The notes under the pieces: model-generated
The model's database searches: none
The model's input: the letters and a program-made list of their open reading frames with translations, nothing else
What the model was told of the DNA's origin: nothing
Shown: piece after piece, positions 21,207-34,893 of the stretch
How the letters are laid out: each line of letters begins with the position of its first letter
Numbering within the stretch: position 1 is the first letter of the stretch
Translations under genes and position numbers: made by a program
Source of the DNA: Desulfosoma sp.
GTDB lineage: Bacteria > Desulfobacterota > Syntrophobacteria > Syntrophobacterales > DSM-9756
DNA length: 64,000 nt
Direction: 5' to 3'
Assembly (NCBI GenBank): GCA_037481875.1
Contig: JBBFKY010000005.1
Span: 163,934-227,933, forward strand

Positions 21207-23000
21207 ATGAGTGATCAGTGCCAAAAATTTCCGGATCAAGAAGAACTGGAAAGGGAGCTCAGCGAATTCCTTTCCAAGAAATACGGACGCCAGATCAGGG
21301 TCATTTCCCCCATGATGGTTGCCCACCCCAAAGCAGGCGAATCCAAAAAGTCTTCGTCGGAAAAGGTGCGTCAGATTCAGTTTGACATGAAACCCGAAGA
21401 GCTGGAAGCCTACCTCGACCAATACGTGGTCAAGCAGGAGCAGGCCAAGGCCATTTTGGCGACCAAGATCTGCACGCATTACAACCGTATCAAGTGGCGC
21501 TTGGAACGGGGACATCGAAACGCCGATCCCATCGGGCGCATTAAGAACAACATTATCCTGATGGGCCCCACCGGAGTGGGGAAAACCTATCTTATCAAGC
21601 TGATTGCTCAGAAGATCGGTGTTCCTTTCGTCAAGGGAGATGCCACCAAGTTCAGCGAAACAGGCTATGTGGGCGGAGATGTGGAAGACTTGGTGCGAGA
21701 CCTGGTGCGTGCCGCCGATGATGATCTGGAACTGGCCCAGTACGGAATCATTTACATTGACGAAATCGATAAGATCGCTTCCTCTTCACAGCTTATCGGA
21801 CCTGATGTGTCGCGAACCGGTGTTCAGCGAGCCTTGTTAAAGCCCATGGAAGAGACCGAAGTGGATCTACGGGTTCCTCATGATCCCATCTCCCAACTGC
21901 AGGCCATCGAACAATACCGAAGAACCGGCAAAAGGGACAAGCAAACCATCAACACCAAAAACATTCTCTTTATCGTCAGTGGCGCTTTTAACGGTTTGGC
22001 CGAAATCGTCAAAAAACGCCTGCAACAGCAAGGTGTGGGATTTCGCGCCGCCGTTCACAGTCGCACAGACGACCACAAGTTCCTTCAGCACGTCAAAGCG
22101 GAAGACCTCATCGAATATGGATTTGAAAGTGAGTTCGTGGGGCGTCTTCCCGTGATCGCTGTTTTGGAACCTTTGGAAGTGGAAGATTTGTATCAAATCC
22201 TGAAGAATCCAAACAGTCCGATCATTCAAGGGAAAAAAGAGGATTTTCGCTGCTACGGGATCGATCTTAAATTCCAGGACGAGGCTCTGTGGACCTTGGC
22301 GGAAATGGCTTACCAGGAAAGAACGGGAGCAAGAGGGCTGGTGAGTGTCATCGAGCGGATCTTGTTGGGATTTGAGAAACGCTTGCCGTCCACCTCCATT
22401 CGCCATTTGGTGGTGACCAAGGACCTGGTCCTGCATCCCCAGGAAGCTTTGGAAGCCATTCTTAAGGATCCGGATTCGCCCCAGCAGCGTGAGCTTTATG
22501 AACGGATGGTGCGAGAGGAAAAAGAAGCCGTTCATCAACAGGTCCTCAAGAAAAAGAAACATTACGTCCACAACTATCCCTTCGTCTTTACGCCGGGACG
22601 GTTGGAACTCTTGGTGGATCAGCATGTGAAAACCGGAGAACCCATCGAAGGGCTCTTTGACGCCATGATCACCATGTATAACCAGATCAAGGTTTTTGAA
22701 GAAGAATTTCACGACCATCAGGGTTTTAAAATCCATTTCGACGATCAGGCTATGACCGCCATTATGATCAAGGCCTTGACGGAGGATAAGACAGCCACGG
22801 CTGTGTGTCGGGAAATTTCGCGGGATTACGACTATGCCTTTCGACTGGTCGCCGAAAGAAGCGGTCAGATTCAATTCATTCTCCCCAAGGGTGCCGTGGA
22901 TGCTCCGGAAGCCTACCTGGATGAACTCATTCGGGACACCTACCGCAAGCACCCTCTCCCTGAGGAAAAGGCCTCATCGCAGAAAGGATCGACCTCATGA
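21207..23000 (+). CDS. ClpX-like AAA+ ATPase lacking the N-terminal zinc domain
   Basis: This 597-residue protein follows the ClpX plan: Walker A GPTGVGKT (120-127), pore loop in SETGYVGGDVED (150-161), Walker B IIYIDEID (181-188), then ISQ-type inserts and the sensor-2 arginine region GARGLVSVIERIL. A GVGF sequence sits where ClpX has its ClpP-binding IGF loop. The usual four-cysteine zinc domain is missing; instead there are about 60 unrelated N-terminal residues and about 160 extra residues at the C-terminus. The stop overlaps ahbC by 4 bp, tying it to heme synthesis. It could be a second ClpX or a dedicated unfoldase; the substrate is unknown. Confidence 0.8.
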   Translation: MSDQCQKFPDQEELERELSEFLSKKYGRQIRVISPMMVAHPKAGESKKSSSEKVRQIQFDMKPEELEAYLDQYVVKQEQAKAILATKICTHYNRIKWRLERGHRNADPIGRIKNNIILMGPTGVGKTYLIKLIAQKIGVPFVKGDATKFSETGYVGGDVEDLVRDLVRAADDDLELAQYGIIYIDEIDKIASSSQLIGPDVSRTGVQRALLKPMEETEVDLRVPHDPISQLQAIEQYRRTGKRDKQTINTKNILFIVSGAFNGLAEIVKKRLQQQGVGFRAAVHSRTDDHKFLQHVKAEDLIEYGFESEFVGRLPVIAVLEPLEVEDLYQILKNPNSPIIQGKKEDFRCYGIDLKFQDEALWTLAEMAYQERTGARGLVSVIERILLGFEKRLPSTSIRHLVVTKDLVLHPQEALEAILKDPDSPQQRELYERMVREEKEAVHQQVLKKKKHYVHNYPFVFTPGRLELLVDQHVKTGEPIEGLFDAMITMYNQIKVFEEEFHDHQGFKIHFDDQAMTAIMIKALTEDKTATAVCREISRDYDYAFRLVAERSGQIQFILPKGAVDAPEAYLDELIRDTYRKHPLPEEKASSQKGSTS

Positions 23001-24187
23001 TCGGTATTTCCAAGCTGTACTGCGGCACCGTGGAACCTTCGGACGCCTTGCGCTACGGTCGCCGCAGCGGAGAACTCCCTTCGCATCTTTTACAGTTTTC
23101 CCAGGACAAAAAGCCTGTCGTGGTCTGGAACATGACCCGTCGATGCAATCTCAAATGCGTTCACTGCTACGCTCAGGCTCTGGATCGCCATTTTCCCGAT
23201 GAACTGACCACGGCTGAAGGGAAACTTCTTCTGGACGATTTGGCCGCCTTTGGGTGCCCCGTGGTTCTGTTTTCAGGTGGAGAACCTCTCATGAGGCCGG
23301 ATCTCGTGGAACTGGCCGCTTATGCCGTAGAGAAAGGTATGCGTGCCGTTGTTTCCACCAACGGCACCTTGATCACGCCCGGCATCGCTCAGGAACTGAG
23401 ACACATAGGGCTTTCGTACGTAGGCATCAGTCTGGACGGCATGGAATCGGTCAATGATCGGTTTCGAGGGGTCAAAGGGGCGTTTCAAAGGGCGATGGAA
23501 GGGATTGCCGCCTGCCGGGAAGCCGGCATCAAGGTGGGGTTACGCTTCACCATGAATCGACGGAACGCCGCCGAAATCCCGGCTATCTTTGATCTGTTGG
23601 AATCCCAAGATATTCCGAGGGTCTGCTTTTATCATTTGGTGTATGCCGGTCGAGGCTCCAAGCTCATGGAAGAAGATCTCACTCATGAAGAAACGCGGCG
23701 TGCCGTGGATCTTATCATCGATCGTACAGCGGATCTGCATCGACGCGGAAAACCCAAGGAAGTGCTCACGGTGGACAACCACGCCGACGGTCCCTACGTC
23801 TACCTGCGCCTGCTTCGAGAAGGGTCTCCTCGAGCACCGGATGTTCTCAAACTTCTGGAAATGAATGAAGGCAACAATTCCGGGCGAGGAATCGGCTGTG
23901 TGAGTTGGGATGGTCAGGTGCATGCGGACCAGTTTTGGAGGCATTATTCCTTCGGCAATGTTCGGCAACGACCCTTCAGCGCCATCTGGACCGATCTTTC
24001 CAATCCCCTCATGGCTCGCTTGAAGGACAAGAAAACCTACGTGAAAGGCCGATGCGCTCAATGCCGCTGGTTGTCGGTATGTGGGGGTAATTTTCGCGTA
24101 CGCGCGGAAGCGGCGACTGGGGATCTTTGGGCCCCTGACCCCGCCTGTTACCTGACGGACGAAGAGATCGGCTTCCAAGCCGGCTGA
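22997..24187 (+). CDS. ahbC: 12,18-didecarboxysiroheme deacetylase (radical SAM), AhbC
   Basis: AhbC removes the two acetate side chains of 12,18-didecarboxysiroheme to give iron-coproporphyrin III in the siroheme-dependent heme route. The 396-residue protein has the radical SAM cluster CNLKCVHC (Cys50, Cys54, Cys57), FSGGEPLMRPDL, and a C-terminal cysteine segment CAQCRWLSVCGGNFRVRAE with a later Cys, which separates AhbC (CGGNFR) from AhbD (CGGCRAR). It is coupled to the ClpX-like gene by an ATGA overlap and followed by hemB and ahbD. Confidence 0.9.
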   Translation: MIGISKLYCGTVEPSDALRYGRRSGELPSHLLQFSQDKKPVVVWNMTRRCNLKCVHCYAQALDRHFPDELTTAEGKLLLDDLAAFGCPVVLFSGGEPLMRPDLVELAAYAVEKGMRAVVSTNGTLITPGIAQELRHIGLSYVGISLDGMESVNDRFRGVKGAFQRAMEGIAACREAGIKVGLRFTMNRRNAAEIPAIFDLLESQDIPRVCFYHLVYAGRGSKLMEEDLTHEETRRAVDLIIDRTADLHRRGKPKEVLTVDNHADGPYVYLRLLREGSPRAPDVLKLLEMNEGNNSGRGIGCVSWDGQVHADQFWRHYSFGNVRQRPFSAIWTDLSNPLMARLKDKKTYVKGRCAQCRWLSVCGGNFRVRAEAATGDLWAPDPACYLTDEEIGFQAG

Positions 24188-24205
24188 TCCAAGGAGGTTT
24201 GGTGC

Positions 24206-25180
24206 ATGTACTTTCCTGAATACCGGCCGAGACGCTTGAGACGCACGGAAAATTTGCGACGTATGGTCCGGGAGACACGCCTGAGTCCGGACATGTTCAT
24301 CTATCCCCTTTTTGTCCGAAGCGGTCGAGGAATTCGTCAGGCTGTTCCGTCCATGCCCGGTGTGTTTCAATGGTCCCGAGATACCGTGGTCCACGAAGTG
24401 AAAGAGGTCCATGGGCTGGGAATTCCTGCGGTGATCCTCTTTGGACTGCCGGAAAAAAAAGACGAAATAGGATCGGAAGCCTATGCTTCGAACGGCGTGG
24501 TACAGGAAGCCGTGAGAGCCATCAAAGACGCCTGTCCTGATCTGGTAGTCATTACAGATGTATGCCTGTGCGAATATACAAGCCACGGGCATTGCGGCGT
24601 GTTACACGCTCAGGAAGTGGACAACGATCCGACCCTGGGTCTTCTAGCCAGAATCGCCGTCTCCCATGCTCAGGCGGGAGCGGACATGGTGGCTCCATCG
24701 GATATGATGGACGGTCGTGTCGGCGCCATTCGCGAAAGCCTTGATGAAGAAGGATTTCACCAAACAGGCATCATGGCCTATTCAGCCAAGTATTGTTCCG
24801 CTTTTTACGGCCCGTTTCGTGAAGCGGCGGATTCAGCGCCTCAATTCGGGGACCGGCGTTCCTACCAGATGGATCCACCCAATGCTCGTGAAGCCCTTCG
24901 CGAGATTCAGCTGGATATCGAGGAAGGAGCCGACATTGTCATGGTGAAGCCCGCTTTGGCTTATCTGGATATTATTCGACGCGTCAAAGAAGAATTCGAC
25001 TGGCCTGTAGCCGCTTATAATGTCAGTGGGGAATACGCCATGATCAAGGCCGCTGCCGCCAACGGCTGGCTGGATGAACAACGTGTCATGATGGAAGTGC
25101 TCACGGCCATTCACAGGGCCGGAGCCGACATGATCCTCACTTACTTCGCCAAGGATGCCGCCAGGCTGCTATCCTCCTAA
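24206..25180 (+). CDS. hemB: Porphobilinogen synthase (delta-aminolevulinate dehydratase)
   Basis: HemB condenses two 5-aminolevulinates to porphobilinogen, an early step of all tetrapyrrole synthesis. The 324-residue protein has the zinc-type cysteine site [14 protein letters not shown], the first Schiff-base lysine in [14 protein letters not shown] and the second in [18 protein letters not shown] precedes the ATG. Its position between ahbC and ahbD groups early and late heme steps in one operon. Confidence 0.96.
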
Positions 25181-25194
25181 AGAAAGGAGTGTTC

Positions 25195-26316
25195 ATGCCT
25201 TCCCACGCCGTTTCCTCCACCGGTCCTCATGCCGCCGGGACTCCTCACACTGAAGCTCATGCATGGACTCTCCGCCTTGTGGCCTGGGAAGTCACCCGCA
25301 CCTGCAATCTCTCCTGCGTGCACTGCCGCGCCGCGGCCATGGACAAACCCTACCCCAACGAACTCAGCACAACGGAAGGTCTTCGCCTTTTAGATGACCT
25401 GGCGGCCCTGGGATCGCCCATTGTCATCCTTACGGGAGGGGAGCCTCTGCTCAGGCCGGATATTTTCGACTTGGCCGCTTACGGCCATGAACGAGGGCTT
25501 CGCATGACCATGGCACCCAACGGCACTCTTGTGACCCTCGATGCCGCGCGAAGAATGAAAGAGGTTGGGATTCAGCGTATCAGCATCAGCCTGGACGGAG
25601 CGGACGCCGCAAGCCACGATGCGTTTCGCCAAATGCCGGGAGCCTTTGACGGAGCGCTTAAAGGAATTCGTTCTGCTAGGGAAGCCGATCTTCCCTTTCA
25701 AATCAACACCACCATCACGGCCACAAACCTCAAGGAGCTGCCTCGCATTCAGGAACTTGCCGTGAATCTGGGTGCTGTGGCACACCATATCTTTCTGCTG
25801 GTTCCCGTAGGTCGAGGAAAGTCTCTGGAAGAACAGGCTATCAATGCAGAACAATACGAACAAACCTTGCACTGGTTTTACGAACAGCGCGACAAGGTTC
25901 CCTTGCAGCTCAAGGCCACCTGTGCCCCTCATTATTACCGCATCCTTCGGCAAAGAGCCCGTCAGGAAGGCCGTTCTGTGGACATGAAAACCTTCGGGTT
26001 GGATGCTATGACTCGAGGTTGCTTGGGAGGCACAGGGTTTTGCTTCATTTCCCACGTGGGTCAGGTGCAACCGTGCGGCTACCTGGAAGTGAACTGCGGG
26101 AATGTTCGGGATCAAGGATTTCGCGAGATTTGGGAAAACTCCGAGGTTTTTCGAAGGCTTCGAAACTTCAAAGCGTTGGAAGGAAAATGCGGGCGTTGCG
26201 AATACGTTCGTGTCTGCGGCGGATGCCGCGCTCGCGCCTTTGAAGCTACGGGAAATTACATGGCCGAAGAGCCCCTTTGCCTTTATGAACCCAAAGCTTT
26301 ACGATCTCCGGTCTAA
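25195..26316 (+). CDS. ahbD: Heme b synthase (radical SAM), AhbD
   Basis: AhbD decarboxylates two propionates of iron-coproporphyrin III to vinyl groups, giving heme b without oxygen. The 373-residue protein has the cluster motif CNLSCVHC (Cys37, Cys41, Cys44), LTGGEPLLRPDIF and a second cluster region CGRCEYVRVCGGCRARAFE with a final Cys near the end. The ATG at 25195 has AGGAG 5 nt upstream; a GTG two codons earlier is less likely. It is 14 nt after hemB. PqqE-like maturases look similar, but the AhbC/HemB context settles the call. Confidence 0.9.
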   Translation: MPSHAVSSTGPHAAGTPHTEAHAWTLRLVAWEVTRTCNLSCVHCRAAAMDKPYPNELSTTEGLRLLDDLAALGSPIVILTGGEPLLRPDIFDLAAYGHERGLRMTMAPNGTLVTLDAARRMKEVGIQRISISLDGADAASHDAFRQMPGAFDGALKGIRSAREADLPFQINTTITATNLKELPRIQELAVNLGAVAHHIFLLVPVGRGKSLEEQAINAEQYEQTLHWFYEQRDKVPLQLKATCAPHYYRILRQRARQEGRSVDMKTFGLDAMTRGCLGGTGFCFISHVGQVQPCGYLEVNCGNVRDQGFREIWENSEVFRRLRNFKALEGKCGRCEYVRVCGGCRARAFEATGNYMAEEPLCLYEPKALRSPV

Positions 26317-26778: not shown

Positions 26779-26779
26779 T
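26762..26779 (-). terminator. Possible terminator of the ctpA-deacetylase-DUF1573 operon
   Basis: AAAAGG (26762-26767) pairs with CCTTTT (26774-26779) around a 6-nt loop and abuts the stop codon of the DUF1573 gene. The short stem is only 6 bp but ends in Ts on the minus strand. Confidence 0.4.
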
Positions 26780-27915
26780 CACTGATGGGCCACAAAAACC
26801 TGCACATCAAGCGGGTCTTCAGGGCGAATGCTTGTGTACACTTTTAGCTCAGTGCGTTTCTGGAATCCCTGCGGAACTGTCTCAAGCTTCGCCGTGATTT
26901 CCAATAAATAACCGGCAACACCTTCTTCAAGCTTTGTCTCCACGTTCAAAAGCTTCGCATCGTATTCCAACCGCAAAATACGAAAGTCGGTTCCGCCGTG
27001 GTGCACCACCAGAACTCGGCCCACCCGGTTTTCGTTGGATCCTTTCACCTTTCCAACCAGAACACTTGTGGGCCGAATCCCCACAGGCCCTTCCACCATT
27101 CCTCGAACCGTGAGCAGCACTTCCGGCTTTTGAGGGTGGTCCGTCTCCAATCGAACATACCCGGCATAACTGCCCTGCTCAGCCCTATTTTCGACGATCA
27201 GCCGGTAACGCCTGCCTTCCTCCAGCGTCTCCACCTGTGTGCGAATCTCCTTTTCCAGGTTGGTTTCCACACGCAGAATGCGCATCGGCACTTTCAGACT
27301 TTCCACTTCCACGTGCTGCGCTTGTAACCCCGCCGACGGCCCTCGAAAAACCACCGTATCGCTTGGGCGAATATCAACAAAAGGAACCACCTTGAGGCTT
27401 ACGGCAAGTGAAGCCCTAGGGCTTTGGGGATCATTGCAGTGCACTGTGGCGCTCTTGGTGACCTTTCCCCGAAATCCCGAAAGATTGATGGATAACGTGA
27501 TTTTTCCCTCTCCACCTGGAGGGATAAGCCGGTCGAACCTGGCCACGCTGCAGCCTCAGCCAGGGCGAACCTGTTCGATGGAAAGAGGCGCCGTACCGGT
27601 ATTACGTACCACAAAATCGTGGGAAACAGTGCCGTTTTCCATCACTTCACCCAAGTCTACCACTGGATTTTCAATGATAATTCGGGGAGTATCTGTTTTT
27701 TCCGAAGGAGTCGAAGTCGGTGGCGTTGAATCTGCCGATGCCATGAAAGAGACAAACATCACCGAGAAAATAGCCGGAACAAACGTGAGGCCTTTCAAAA
27801 GAGAACGGAGGTCTTTCAGGCTATTCCTTGAATGAGGCCGAGCTTTTGGGCGCCTGTGCCCATTCCCGGTCAAAACAGCCGCCTTGATCCGACTTCCTTG
27901 CATTTGTGCGGGCAC
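26779..27915 (-). CDS. DUF1573-type exported protein, predicted selenoprotein (Sec120)
   Basis: Two abutting reading frames join through one in-frame TGA at 27556-27558 into a 378-codon gene. The UGA is codon 120 in the sequence V-R-P-G-U-G-C-S, exactly where DUF1573 proteins have the first Cys of CGCT, followed by the normal IPPGGEGKI continuation. I read it as selenocysteine (U-G-C redox pair) rather than a stop. A hairpin at 27528-27543 (stem GCC/GGC plus GGT/ACC, one bulged A, UCG loop) lies 12 nt after the UGA, the right place for a bacterial SECIS. Residues about 42-62 look like a signal peptide, and three Ig-like repeats follow. The start is GTG 27915 with GGGAG 8 nt upstream (ATG 27903 is an alternative). 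Function is unknown. Confidence 0.82.
27528..27543 (-). promoter_or_regulatory. Candidate bacterial SECIS hairpin
   Basis: On the minus strand the 16-nt element pairs GCC with GGC and GGT with ACC, leaving one bulged A and a UCG apical loop 19-21 nt after the UGA, within the 16-37 nt window known for SelB recognition. A second hairpin (27506-27523) begins about 32 nt after the UGA and is a fallback. Confidence 0.5.
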
Positions 27916-27928
27916 GCTTGTGTCTCCC

Positions 27929-29071
27929 TTAAGAAACGTCTGATGGAGCGCCCTTATGAGACGACGGTTCCTGCCACAGTTTCTTGAGAGGAACTATTTC
28001 GATTCCTTCCTTTTGAAAAGTCTCCGCCTCCTCCTGCAACACTTTCAAAGTGATCGGATGAGGATGACCGATAGCGACGGCTTCACCTTGCACCCTGGCT
28101 CGACGAATGAGCTCGGCGATTTGACGACGAACAAACTCTTCCGTCGGTTCATGATCCAGAAAAATATCCCTCTGGGCACAGGTCACCCCAATCTCCCGCG
28201 CCACCGAAACCGCCACGCTTCGGCCACTGGTGTAACTGTCCAAATAATAAAACCCTCTCGATTTCAGATACTGCAGCACAACCCTCATGGCCTCGGGGTC
28301 TTCCGTGAACTTGGAACCCATATGGTTGTTAAGACCTCGAGCGTAGGGGTTTTCCTTCAGAGCCTTTTCAATCTGGGCCACCATTTCCTGAGGGGTCATA
28401 GCCACCAACAGGGCACCTTTGCCGGGGTTTGTTGCAGGATAGCCGTGGGGTTCCATGGGCATATGGATCAGCACTTCATGCCCATGGGCCGCCGCCAAAG
28501 CCGCCACTTCACGCGTGTGGGGAAGGTGAGGCAGCACGGAAAAGGTCAAGGGTAAGGGAAGGTTAATGAATTTACGTGCTATTTTCAGATCGTAGCCGAA
28601 ATCGTCGATCACCAAGGCCACTCGAGCCAGGGCAGGTTTTTCCGGCACCGTGGGCGGTACCGGCGGCTCAACGGGTGGTTTCGGCACCGCAGCCACCACG
28701 CTGGGCCCCTGGGAGTCCGCCGTATGACGAGAAGTTTTGGATGTCTCCTCCAAGGACCCATTGGACGTCACTGACTTGGTTCTTCTAGGAGCTTGAGCCT
28801 GTGACGCAGGACCAGTCATCTCCCCAGTCTGTCTTCCCTTGATTTCCACTGAGGATGTTCGAAAAGGGTTCCCTTTAGCCCAAAACACAAGGCTTAGAAG
28901 AATAAACAGCACAACAATCCACACGGTGAGCATAGGGACAAAGACGCTTTCCTTGGGGGACTTTCGTCCTGCTCGACCGGATGTCGCGGCTCCCTTTCGC
29001 GTTCTCTGTCCCAAGAGGGCCCTTGGACGCTTGCCTGTTGAGACGGGCCTTTTACCTTGGGTTGTGGCCAT
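27929..29071 (-). CDS. Divergent polysaccharide deacetylase family protein
   Basis: This 380-residue protein has one transmembrane segment (about residues 46-65: FVPMLTVWIVVLFILLSLVF), a proline/serine-rich linker to residue 148, and a domain with the divergent polysaccharide deacetylase pattern: VALVIDDFGYD, LPLTFSVLPHLPHT, HEVLIHMPMEP and GLNNHMGSKF. The family is thought to act on cell-wall glycans; activity is unproven. Its place directly after the protease ctpA is common in proteobacteria, and the DUF1573 gene starts 13 nt after its stop. Confidence 0.85.
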   Translation of the reverse strand: MATTQGKRPVSTGKRPRALLGQRTRKGAATSGRAGRKSPKESVFVPMLTVWIVVLFILLSLVFWAKGNPFRTSSVEIKGRQTGEMTGPASQAQAPRRTKSVTSNGSLEETSKTSRHTADSQGPSVVAAVPKPPVEPPVPPTVPEKPALARVALVIDDFGYDLKIARKFINLPLPLTFSVLPHLPHTREVAALAAAHGHEVLIHMPMEPHGYPATNPGKGALLVAMTPQEMVAQIEKALKENPYARGLNNHMGSKFTEDPEAMRVVLQYLKSRGFYYLDSYTSGRSVAVSVAREIGVTCAQRDIFLDHEPTEEFVRRQIAELIRRARVQGEAVAIGHPHPITLKVLQEEAETFQKEGIEIVPLKKLWQEPSSHKGAPSDVS

Positions 29072-29091: not shown

Positions 29092-30414
29092 CTATTTGTA
29101 CCGTGTTTCCGCCATGATGCGATAACTCTTGAGCAGCTCCAGAGCGTGGCGCACTTGATTGTCCACCTCAAGCCATTTTTCCGTCTCCGTCGGCTGCTCC
29201 GGCACCGCCCCCTTGTCCTGTTGCTCGGGACTGTCGGACGGGGCCTCCATGTGCCGAGGTAAATCTTTTTCACGCAAACGTCGTGCCGATTCCTCACTGC
29301 CATTTTCCGGGTTGGGCACAATGCGCTTGACCACAATGTCCGGCGTAATGCCCTTGGCTTGAATGGAACGTCCGCTGGGAGTGTAATACAGCGACGTGGT
29401 CAGACGTACCGCCGATCCGTCGTTGAGCGGGATGACGGTCTGCACGGAACCCTTACCGAAAGTGGGTTCACCCACAATGACAGCCCTTCGGTGATCTTGC
29501 AAGGCCCCTGCCACAATTTCCGACGCGCTGGCACTACCCCCGTTTACCAGAACCACGATGGGATACGGATGGGGCACGGCGTTTTTGGTCGCTTCAAAGC
29601 GCATCTGCTGGTTTTCACGACGTCCGCCCGTGTAGACAATAAGGCCCGAGTCCAAAAACTCGTCGGCCACGGCCACCGCCTGATCCAGTAAGCCTCCCGG
29701 GTTATTGCGCAGATCCAGAATCAATCCCTGCAGCGGTTTTTCCTCCGCCTCCAGCTTTTCCAAGACCTTCCTCAGATCGCGTCCCGTACCGCTCTGAAAG
29801 CTGGAAATACGCACATAACCATAGCCTTTTTCCAAAAAGCGCGTTCGTACGCTTTGAATGGAAATGATGTCTCGAGTCAACTCAAATTCCAGGGGTTTGC
29901 GCTGACCTTCCCGCATGATCGTGAGCTTGACCTTGGTGCCCTTTGGGCCCCGCATCTTTTGCACCGCTTCCGTCAGACTCATTTCCTGGGTCGGAGCTCC
30001 ATCGATCTTGATGATCTGGTCATTGGCTTGAATACCGGCCTTGTCCGCCGGGGTTCCTTCCAAGGGAGCCACCACGGTCAGGACTCCGTTGCGAACGGTA
30101 ATCTCGATGCCGATCCCGCCGAACTTCCCCTTGGTTTCTATTTCGAGCTCTTTGTAGTCCTCAGGGCGCAAAAAGGACGAGTGAGGATCCAGTTCTCGAA
30201 GCATGCCGCTGATGGCCCCGTAAATGAGCTTTCGAGAATCCACCTCCTCCACGTAATGATCCTGGACCAAATTCATCACATCACTAAAGAGCTTGAGCTG
30301 CTCGTAGACGCCCTTTTCAGCCCCCGTCGCCATGGCTCTCAAAGCGATCCATCCCGCCAAGGCCACACAAGCGGTCATGACAACCAAACGAGTCTTTCTG
30401 CTCCCTTTTTTCAT
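29092..30414 (-). CDS. ctpA: Carboxy-terminal processing protease (S41 family)
   Basis: This periplasmic serine protease trims or degrades proteins from the C-terminus. The 440-residue protein has an N-terminal signal/anchor (residues 9-27), a PDZ domain around 90-180 (KFGGIGIEI...DQIIKIDG) and the catalytic domain with Ser296 (GGSASASEIVAG) and Lys321 (GEPTFGKGSVQT), exactly 25 residues apart as in known CtpA. The tail after residue 375 is charged and low in complexity. It heads a three-gene operon with the deacetylase and the DUF1573 protein. Confidence 0.93.
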   Translation of the reverse strand: MKKGSRKTRLVVMTACVALAGWIALRAMATGAEKGVYEQLKLFSDVMNLVQDHYVEEVDSRKLIYGAISGMLRELDPHSSFLRPEDYKELEIETKGKFGGIGIEITVRNGVLTVVAPLEGTPADKAGIQANDQIIKIDGAPTQEMSLTEAVQKMRGPKGTKVKLTIMREGQRKPLEFELTRDIISIQSVRTRFLEKGYGYVRISSFQSGTGRDLRKVLEKLEAEEKPLQGLILDLRNNPGGLLDQAVAVADEFLDSGLIVYTGGRRENQQMRFEATKNAVPHPYPIVVLVNGGSASASEIVAGALQDHRRAVIVGEPTFGKGSVQTVIPLNDGSAVRLTTSLYYTPSGRSIQAKGITPDIVVKRIVPNPENGSEESARRLREKDLPRHMEAPSDSPEQQDKGAVPEQPTETEKWLEVDNQVRHALELLKSYRIMAETRYK

Positions 30415-32026: not shown

Positions 32027-32962
32027 TTACACGTTTTCTTTAGAGGCTCGAGGCCTGCCGGCGACTTTTATGGTGGATGAAGGGCCGGCCAAGGCATGCC
32101 ATCGAAAGGCGTCACGAAGGCACACACGCAGGTTACTGTAAATCCCTCTTCGACTGTTGATGAGATACACACTGTGACCGATATGAAACAGCTCGTGCAC
32201 CAGCCGGCACACTTCCCGATTGTCCAAAGACTCCCTCGAATCCGCTAAAGCCTCCTCGAACAAGACGGCAATCTTGTCGCGCATGCGCAGCTCGGTGTCC
32301 ACAAGGAACACGGCCACTTCAGGTTGCAAGTCTTTAAGACGGTTAAGAAAAGCCTTCACCGCCGGCATCTCGACACCTCGCGGCGGGGACGATTTCACTT
32401 CCACGTAAACCAACCGGTGGTTGACCAAGGCGATCACATCATAGTCTCCACCATGACGGGTACGATTCAACCGAACGTTAAATATGGCTGGAGCCAAAAA
32501 TTCTCTTTGAAAAATCTGCCATACGTACCATTCCAAAGTAGGCCCGAAACTGGGCACCGGGGGTCGTATCCATTGCCAACGCCACTGGGAGTCCATGCGG
32601 ACGAGCCCCATATGTTCCAATTCTTTAAGGTAACAGCGCACGGTTTTTGGGGAGCAGTATCGTGTGAGGGGCTCCAAAGATTCCCCATGGGAAGTGCGAA
32701 TGGCATCGCGCAGAAATAAGCGAAAGGAATAACGGCGAAGCAAAGCGTAAAGACGATCCACAGCCTCTTGAGGGGCTTCCGGAGGAATAATCACTTGGCT
32801 GGTGTCTCCATGACTCACCACGGGAAGTCCCCTCTGACTCAAAGCGCTTTCCACAGGGTGCACCCATGCGGCCTGAGACGCCTTAAGAGTCCAAAGTTCG
32901 TGTTGTAAACGATCCAATCGCTGAGAAAGTTCGCGAATGGCTTCCCATTCCTTCTCCCCCAT
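32027..32962 (-). CDS. PD-(D/E)XK nuclease-like protein with N-terminal coiled coil and winged helix
   Basis: This 311-residue protein is not assigned to a named family. Residues 5-27 form a short coiled coil, 65-122 look like a winged helix (SPKTVRCYLKELEHMGLV), and 140-230 carry a restriction-endonuclease-like core: Glu144, Asp175 in GGDYDVIAL and the pair Glu188/Lys190 in VYVEVKSSPP. The complete E/D/E-x-K set suggests metal-dependent nuclease chemistry. The ATG at 32962 overlaps the stop of the CoA-transferase gene as TGATG, so the two are translationally coupled, although no functional link is obvious. Confidence 0.6.
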   Translation of the reverse strand: MGEKEWEAIRELSQRLDRLQHELWTLKASQAAWVHPVESALSQRGLPVVSHGDTSQVIIPPEAPQEAVDRLYALLRRYSFRLFLRDAIRTSHGESLEPLTRYCSPKTVRCYLKELEHMGLVRMDSQWRWQWIRPPVPSFGPTLEWYVWQIFQREFLAPAIFNVRLNRTRHGGDYDVIALVNHRLVYVEVKSSPPRGVEMPAVKAFLNRLKDLQPEVAVFLVDTELRMRDKIAVLFEEALADSRESLDNREVCRLVHELFHIGHSVYLINSRRGIYSNLRVCLRDAFRWHALAGPSSTIKVAGRPRASKENV

Positions 32963-34893
32963 CACGATGCCACCTCTGTGAGACACACATCCACAGGCTT
33001 GTCGAAATGGACTCGAATTTCATAGAAACCATCCATATAAGAACTGTCCACAAAATATCCAAGCCTTTGAAAGATACCGAAGACCTTTTCATTGCCCGGC
33101 CGAATGTAAGCCCGAAATTGACGAATACCGTTCCGTATGGCGATTTCCGCAAGGTATTGAATCATAAAAGATGCGATACCTCTTCGTCCGTAATCGGGAT
33201 GAACCGCAAAGTCCACTTCCGCCCCCGGAGATTCCTCATCGGCAATGAAACGGCCCACGGCGACAATTCTTTCTTCTTCCATGTGTCCCACAAGACCTAC
33301 CAGGGTCATTTCCCGATCATAGTCGATATTGACCAGACGATGGACATCCACCTGAGGATACACCTTCATGGTGGAAAGGAACCGAATGTAGGCTTCATCC
33401 TTGGGTAAGGAGTAGAAAAACTCTCGTAACAAACGTTCATCCGTGGGTTTGGCCGGTCGGAAAAAGACTTCCGTTTCCTCGTCAAACACCTGTTTGACTT
33501 CCAGTTCTTCCGGGTAAATAGCCTTGGCAGCTCGAATGGCGAATTGCTCTTTCTTGAGCAACTGAATACGGTAGGCGTGACGTGTCAGTTCCTCGCGAAA
33601 ATCCGGATGGGCAATACCGATCAAAGCCAACGCCCGTTCTCGAAGGCTCTTGCCCTGAAGCTGAGCAATACCGTACTCGGTCACCACGTATTGAACACCA
33701 CCTCGAGTGGTCACCACACCACCTCCGGGGGTGAGTGTGGGAACGATGCGGGAACGGCCGTCTTCCGTCAAGGACGGAAGCACCGTAATGGTTCTACCTC
33801 CCTTGGAATTTCGAGCCCCCCTCAAGAAATCCACGGCGCCTCCCACGCCGCTGTAAATCTGGTATCCCATGGAATCGGAACAGACCTGCCCGGTGAGATC
33901 GATTTCCAGAGCGGAATTGACACACACCATTTTCTCGTTTTGAGAAATAATCAGGTAATTGTTGGTGTATTCCACGGGATAAAGAGCCACCATGGGATTG
34001 TTGTCAACGAAATCAAAAAGAGTTCGAGTCCCGATACAAAAACTGGCGATGATCTTTCCAGGATGAAGCGTCTTCTTGGCGTTGGTGATAACACCTTTTT
34101 CCACAAGATACAGGTAAGCATCGGTGAGCATATCCGTATGAACGCCGAGATCCTTTTTGTCTTCCAACGCATAAAGAACGGCGCTCGGAATGGACCCGAC
34201 ACCGATACGGATCGTAGAGCCGTCTTCAATGAGTTTGGCTGCTTGAGCCCCGATAGCCGAGGCCACCTCGGTCACTTCGGATGGAGGCATTTCCAGCAGC
34301 GGTTCGTCCCATGCAATCAAGGCATCGATTTCATCCACGTGAATGAAGGAGTCCCCCAAAGTGCGAGGCATATACCTGTTGACTTGAGCGATGACCGTCT
34401 TGGCCGTCTCTGCAGCCGCTTTGACGATGTCCACGGAAATGCCGAGTGAGCAAAAACCGTGGTCGTCAGGGGGAGCCACCTGAATGAGAGCCACGTCGAT
34501 GGGAAGGGTACCACTTCGAAACAACCCGGGGACATCCCCTAAATTGATGGGTGTGTAATCGGCCCGTCCTTCAGCGACGGCCTTTCGGGAAGCCGCGGCC
34601 ACAAAAAAGGATTTCAATCGGCACTTGTCATGGTAACTTTCTTCCAGGAACGTGTGTTTTCCCAAGCTCAAAATATGAAGGATTTCGATGTCGGCCAGTT
34701 TGGGCAGGGCTTCTTCCAAAGCACGTACGAGCTGCTGAGGTTCTCCGCAGGCTGAGCCGATAAAAATCCTTTGGCCTCTTTTCAGGGCTCGAAAGGCTCG
34801 GCGTATGTCGGTGAGCTTCTTGTGCCATTCACCTTGCCGAGCCTCTTCGGCATTTCGGCTTGTATTCACCAACGGATTCTGCGAGTCGCTCAT
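32962..34893 (-). CDS. Acetyl-CoA hydrolase/transferase with C-terminal GNAT domain
   Basis: This 643-residue fusion has a two-half class I CoA-transferase of the acetyl-CoA hydrolase/4-hydroxybutyrate CoA-transferase group (RIFIGSACGEPQQLVRAL, IRIGVGSIPSAVLYAL, VVTEYGIAQLQGKSL) to about residue 475, then a GNAT acetyltransferase domain with the acetyl-CoA loop YGRRGIASFMIQYLAE. Such fusions occur in deltaproteobacteria; the GNAT part may act as a sensor or acetylate partner proteins. It sits between lgt (13 nt upstream) and the nuclease-like gene. Confidence 0.88.
   Translation of the reverse strand: MSDSQNPLVNTSRNAEEARQGEWHKKLTDIRRAFRALKRGQRIFIGSACGEPQQLVRALEEALPKLADIEILHILSLGKHTFLEESYHDKCRLKSFFVAAASRKAVAEGRADYTPINLGDVPGLFRSGTLPIDVALIQVAPPDDHGFCSLGISVDIVKAAAETAKTVIAQVNRYMPRTLGDSFIHVDEIDALIAWDEPLLEMPPSEVTEVASAIGAQAAKLIEDGSTIRIGVGSIPSAVLYALEDKKDLGVHTDMLTDAYLYLVEKGVITNAKKTLHPGKIIASFCIGTRTLFDFVDNNPMVALYPVEYTNNYLIISQNEKMVCVNSALEIDLTGQVCSDSMGYQIYSGVGGAVDFLRGARNSKGGRTITVLPSLTEDGRSRIVPTLTPGGGVVTTRGGVQYVVTEYGIAQLQGKSLRERALALIGIAHPDFREELTRHAYRIQLLKKEQFAIRAAKAIYPEELEVKQVFDEETEVFFRPAKPTDERLLREFFYSLPKDEAYIRFLSTMKVYPQVDVHRLVNIDYDREMTLVGLVGHMEEERIVAVGRFIADEESPGAEVDFAVHPDYGRRGIASFMIQYLAEIAIRNGIRQFRAYIRPGNEKVFGIFQRLGYFVDSSYMDGFYEIRVHFDKPVDVCLTEVAS

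Follow-up and report, generated by a model that had tools for sequence, protein, structure and literature searches.

The question raised by this locus is whether a single in-frame UGA breaks a gene in two, or is read as an amino acid within an intact one. In the window, a 64,000-nucleotide stretch of a Desulfosoma sp. genome, a DUF1573/OS_HP2-family gene lies on the minus strand at 26779..27915. Read from 27915 down to 26779 with TGA as selenocysteine (Sec, U), it encodes 378 residues followed by a terminal TGA (26781-26779, minus), and contains exactly one internal TGA, codon 120 (27556..27558, minus). Without read-through (table 11), the DUF1573 frame consists of ORFs of 119 and 255 amino acids. 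The coordinates and the single in-frame UGA at 27556-27558 given by the original prediction hold. Since this gene also uses TGA to terminate, UGA has not been reassigned globally. Codon 120 falls on the first residue of the DUF1573 C-G-C motif, the surrounding peptide being LSIEQVRPG-U-G-C-SVARFDRLIPPGGEGK (in short, EQVRPG-U-G-C-SVARFD), with Cys122 (27550..27552, minus) as the second member of the predicted U-G-C redox motif.

Translation starts at GTG (27915-27913, minus) or at an ATG at codon 5. A Shine-Dalgarno-like AAGGGAG (27924..27930, minus) stands 8 nt before the GTG and overlaps the TAA of the upstream gene, an arrangement likely to reflect translational coupling to that gene. At the N-terminus, a hydrophobic core, LTFVPAIFSVMFVSFMASA, with A-S-A at its end (27733..27789, minus; read by eye), has the look typical of export signals and supports the proposal of an exported protein with a signal peptide, which precedes three Ig-like domains.

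That the two ORFs are halves of a single DUF1573 protein, as first proposed, is borne out by the Pfam DUF1573 (PF07610) match, which spans residues 81-166 across the TGA and scores 70.7 bits against a gathering score of 26.1. The whole protein reaches 104.6 bits with NCBIfam NF041425, just above the cut-off of 100 (the domain match in the raw genome, at 93.6 bits, falls below it), and its U-x-C motif lies inside pfam07610, the feature by which OS_HP2 is defined. The original prediction had suggested a possibly unreported selenoprotein family, which is wrong: NF041425 carries the name ‘OS_HP2 family (seleno)protein’, OS_HP2 was tabulated in 2008 with pfam07610, UxC and 354 Cys homologues (PMC2398784), and two reviews list a DUF1573 domain-containing protein with pfam07610 and UGC, citing Zhang & Gladyshev 2007 (PMC9312934, PMC13188914). 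On these tables, and on the 2007 work as the reviews cite it, the family dates to 2007-2008.

The Desulfosoma protein shares with OS_HP2 of the Olavius symbiont (NF041425) the pfam07610 domain and Sec at the same U-G-C (UxC) position. It differs in that the NF041425 model covers the first domain only, of ~98 residues, whereas two further Ig-like domains follow in the Desulfosoma protein, whose gene belongs to a Ctp-YibQ gene order; many other relatives are short and lack the two additional domains. The Cys-containing DUF1573 (PF07610) proteins have the same domain with C-G-C at the same place, but carry Cys for Sec, and the hairpin after the codon is often damaged.

Relatives in genome contigs were retrieved with a profile, a single-sequence scan having given none. 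Among 30 long homologues, codon 120 is TGA in 25, TGC in three, ACA in one and TCA in one; the check for Cys at position 120 thus finds it in L018, L032 and L036, with TGA in most. Across 80 relatives from named genomes, a set that overlaps the first and was found with a pattern that may favour the Sec lineage, the same codon is TGA in 77, and TGC, TGT and ACA in one each. These genomes represent Desulfosoma, Desulfacinum, Desulforhabdus, Desulfoferrobacter and many Desulfobacterales, with TGA present in cultured Desulfacinum and Desulfoferrobacter strains and in a Desulforhabdus sp., and the TGA is kept down to ~30% identity among homologues. Near relatives of the window's genome belong to Desulfosoma and Desulfacinum; the genome itself has one convincing DUF1573-selenoprotein copy, and several relatives have up to five. 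Dozens of genomes share the TGA at this codon, which is more than chance would give.

Selection tells the same story on both sides of the codon. For the pair L009/L010, dN/dS comes to ~0.2 on either side of the TGA, and all pairs tested have a pN much lower than pS; purifying selection 3' of the TGA indicates that the downstream part is translated and constrained. Synonymous identity (codons for the same residue) is 0.59 at codons +1 to +17, compared with a background of 0.41, and of all 17-codon windows in the gene, the eleven best begin no more than 11 codons after the TGA. That a Cys codon mutated to TGA, or was so misread in sequencing, to leave a dead protein, is thus scarcely credible: a decaying gene would indeed show a lone stop in one frame, but this explanation is refuted by conservation of the TGA across divergent homologues, in dozens of independent genomes and assemblies, isolates included, and by purifying selection on both sides with synonymous constraint peaking right after the codon.

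The genome was found to hold complete machinery for Sec, as the check for selA, selB, selC and selD had asked: a tRNA-Sec(UCA) (74.5 bits), selA (630 bits), selB, and selD (385 bits) with an in-frame TGA of its own. None of the outcomes that the original prediction had listed as counting against it, such as missing SelB or tRNA-Sec genes, was found. The selD gene lies outside the window (G000 contig C8:51971-52897; L043), and SelD is probably itself a selenoprotein. Further above-threshold matches to the tRNA-Sec model were rejected, as ARAGORN calls them tRNA-Cys or tRNA-Ser.

Also outside the window (G000 contig C2:315649-318791; L002) is a 90-nt tRNA-Cys(GCA) with a long variable arm, which scores as tRNA-Sec in Rfam and is followed 1.2 kb downstream by a second selB; together they make up a selC*/selB* pair of the kind known from Syntrophobacterales (PMC7609411). 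Cys decoding by a selC*/SelB* system has been described for Syntrophobacterales and for Desulfobacterales (Mukai et al. 2017, as reported in PMC7609411), and the long-arm tRNA-Cys beside its own selB would favour the idea that UGA120 is decoded as Cys by such a pair. This is nonetheless very unlikely, because the anticodon of the selC* tRNA is GCA, which reads UGC/UGU and not UGA; the canonical tRNA-Sec(UCA), selA and selD are, moreover, all present.

Comparison with relatives places a SECIS element directly after the UGA, at 27520..27556 on the minus strand, with a lower stem pairing 27556-27553 with 27523-27520, an upper stem pairing 27546-27540 with 27530-27524, and an apical loop at 27539-27531. 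Counted from the U of UGA, the upper stem joins columns 13-19 with 29-35, and 87.5% of cells are paired. The covariation comes mostly from a single column pair, 15/33, formed by the silent third base of a Val codon and that of the codon six further on: GC occurs seven times, CG six, UA four, UG two, and AU and GU once each. These columns show 13 two-sided changes, the covariation score was reached in 0 of 500 shuffles, and the signal is lost when the pairing partner is slid.

The Desulfosoma copy, in the family register, forms five of the seven upper-stem pairs, three of them wobble, and its locally stable form is a shifted hairpin, GGCC-A-GGU/UCG/ACC-GGCU. The UCG-loop hairpin of the original prediction exists, although its loop lies at nt 20-22 after the UGA rather than at 19-21. 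Against shuffled sequence the hairpin has no excess stability: the 39 nt that start at the UGA give z = +1.38, and the 21-nt hairpin alone gives -0.82. As the folding energy of this copy is unremarkable, the evidence for the SECIS is the comparison with relatives. In the TGC, TCA and TGT copies, the upper stem is often damaged, with 3, 3, 3, 6 and 5 pairs of seven. The stem of the ACA copy is intact (7/7), which suggests, from sequence, a recent codon change.

The selenocysteine reading is strongly supported at the level of sequence, by the machinery, the conservation of the UGA, selection, synonymous constraint and hairpin covariation, and the in-frame UGA very probably encodes Sec in a protein that a sulfate-reducing bacterium exports. 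Replacement of the first Cys of C-G-C by Sec, as originally put forward, is supported by the TGA conservation together with the Sec machinery. There is high confidence that the gene encodes a true selenoprotein, a member of the previously described DUF1573/OS_HP2 family; SelB and Sec-tRNA-Sec(UCA) would recode UGA120, guided by the hairpin just downstream.

Natural losses of Sec occur in one genus of Syntrophobacteraceae MAGs, where the Sec codon is ACA (Thr) in L026/L052 (G019), and TCA (Ser) in L033 (G028), the partner Cys of the latter now being Trp. Loss of selB was rejected as the explanation, as selB persists in the Sec-less genomes too. Because the Thr and Ser copies keep both the protein and selB, the DUF1573 scaffold is of some value without the redox pair. 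In a tree of the long forms, non-TGA copies fall among TGA copies; most of the relevant forks are weak, so no direction is claimed for the changes between Sec and non-Sec.

The AlphaFold2 model, built with 28 sequences, has three Ig-like domains at a mean pLDDT of 90. Sec and Cys (model residues 61 and 63) fall on a loop that links two strands of domain 1, where confidence dips to ~76. A sequence search for solved structures gave none matching the selenoprotein. Structural matches to VesB (4lk4, Z 11.8), HYDIN (2e6j, Z 10.8), VesC and bacterial S-layer Ig arrays all speak for the fold only. In sequence, PF22544 (HYDIN/CFA65/VesB-like Ig domain) matches residues 78-173 at 45.8 bits. The likeness to this group, of ASH/PapD-like fold, is one of both sequence and fold, though a shared fold does not mean a shared function.

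The selenoprotein gene is the last of a conserved trio on the minus strand, which begins with a C-terminal processing peptidase of the S41 family with a PDZ domain (CtpA/B type; 29092..30414), followed by a divergent polysaccharide deacetylase (PF04748, YibQ type; 27929..29071) immediately upstream of the selenoprotein. This order was found at 16 of 22 Syntrophobacterales loci (L045-L066), the remaining six including two too short for the test and some second copies, and it persists down to ~36% selenoprotein identity. In Desulfobacterales (L076-L122), the redox-sensing repressor Rex lies upstream at 14 loci and RNase HI downstream at 15. When 95 neighbour genes from other orders were scanned with Pfam and NCBIfam, no redox enzyme recurred as a partner, but Rex and RNase HI did recur; as contexts vary by clade, no dedicated partner is fixed. 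The Ctp-YibQ-selenoprotein order suggests, as far as gene order can, work at the cell envelope. That the three-domain form is a dedicated Sec redox partner of Ctp-YibQ, serving cell-wall or envelope maintenance in Syntrophobacterales, is a doubtful extension of this. Elsewhere in the window, a radical-SAM/ALAD/radical-SAM(SPASM) cluster at 22997-26316 (plus strand) probably represents the haem pathway that sulfate reducers run from siroheme (Ahb), and 32962-34893 (minus strand) encodes an acetyl-CoA hydrolase/transferase with a fused GNAT acetyltransferase domain.

As to what the protein does, the exported product would have three tandem HYDIN/ASH-type Ig-like domains, the first of which bears Sec-Gly-Cys in a loop. 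The U-G-C pair may cycle between a selenolate/thiol and a selenenylsulfide; the protein would then be a periplasmic thiol/selenol oxidoreductase, or a reductant of envelope proteins in an anaerobe, while domains 2-3 would provide a scaffold or a docking surface. This is the favoured but tentative proposal, with a somewhat less than even chance of being right; the selenenylsulfide-type U-x-C site put forward in the original prediction is reasonable on this view.

Two other roles are each unlikely. The three Ig-like domains might themselves be the function of a structural envelope protein, with Sec and Cys only forming a stabilising selenenylsulfide. Such a role would suit a fold that resembles HYDIN/ASH, VesB/VesC Ig domains and S-layer Ig arrays, and the two close relatives that retain the protein without the Sec-Cys pair. 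It sits poorly with the retention of Sec, a costly residue, in nearly all copies, when Cys would suffice for a mere bridge, as in the TGC paralogues. The Sec-Gly-Cys loop could instead serve mainly as a periplasmic ligand for a soft metal or metalloid (mercury, copper, arsenic or the like), rather than cycle in redox. A U-x-C pair presented by an Ig scaffold would bind soft metals strongly, and the same tables include several other families of selenoproteins that handle mercury or metals (PMC9312934, PMC13188914); against this, the contexts examined have no recurring metal-handling neighbour, and many Desulfobacterales copies adjoin the redox regulator Rex instead.

The three-domain form, the Ctp-YibQ gene order and the natural Sec losses were not found described in the searchable literature, and are small additions to a known family. 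The locus demonstrates that recoding of a single UGA is recognisable from raw sequence. It belongs to a known but uncharacterised family in which Sec is retained in nearly every Desulfobacterota copy examined, and for which the conserved peptidase/deacetylase order and the Sec-to-Thr/Ser losses provide handles on function.
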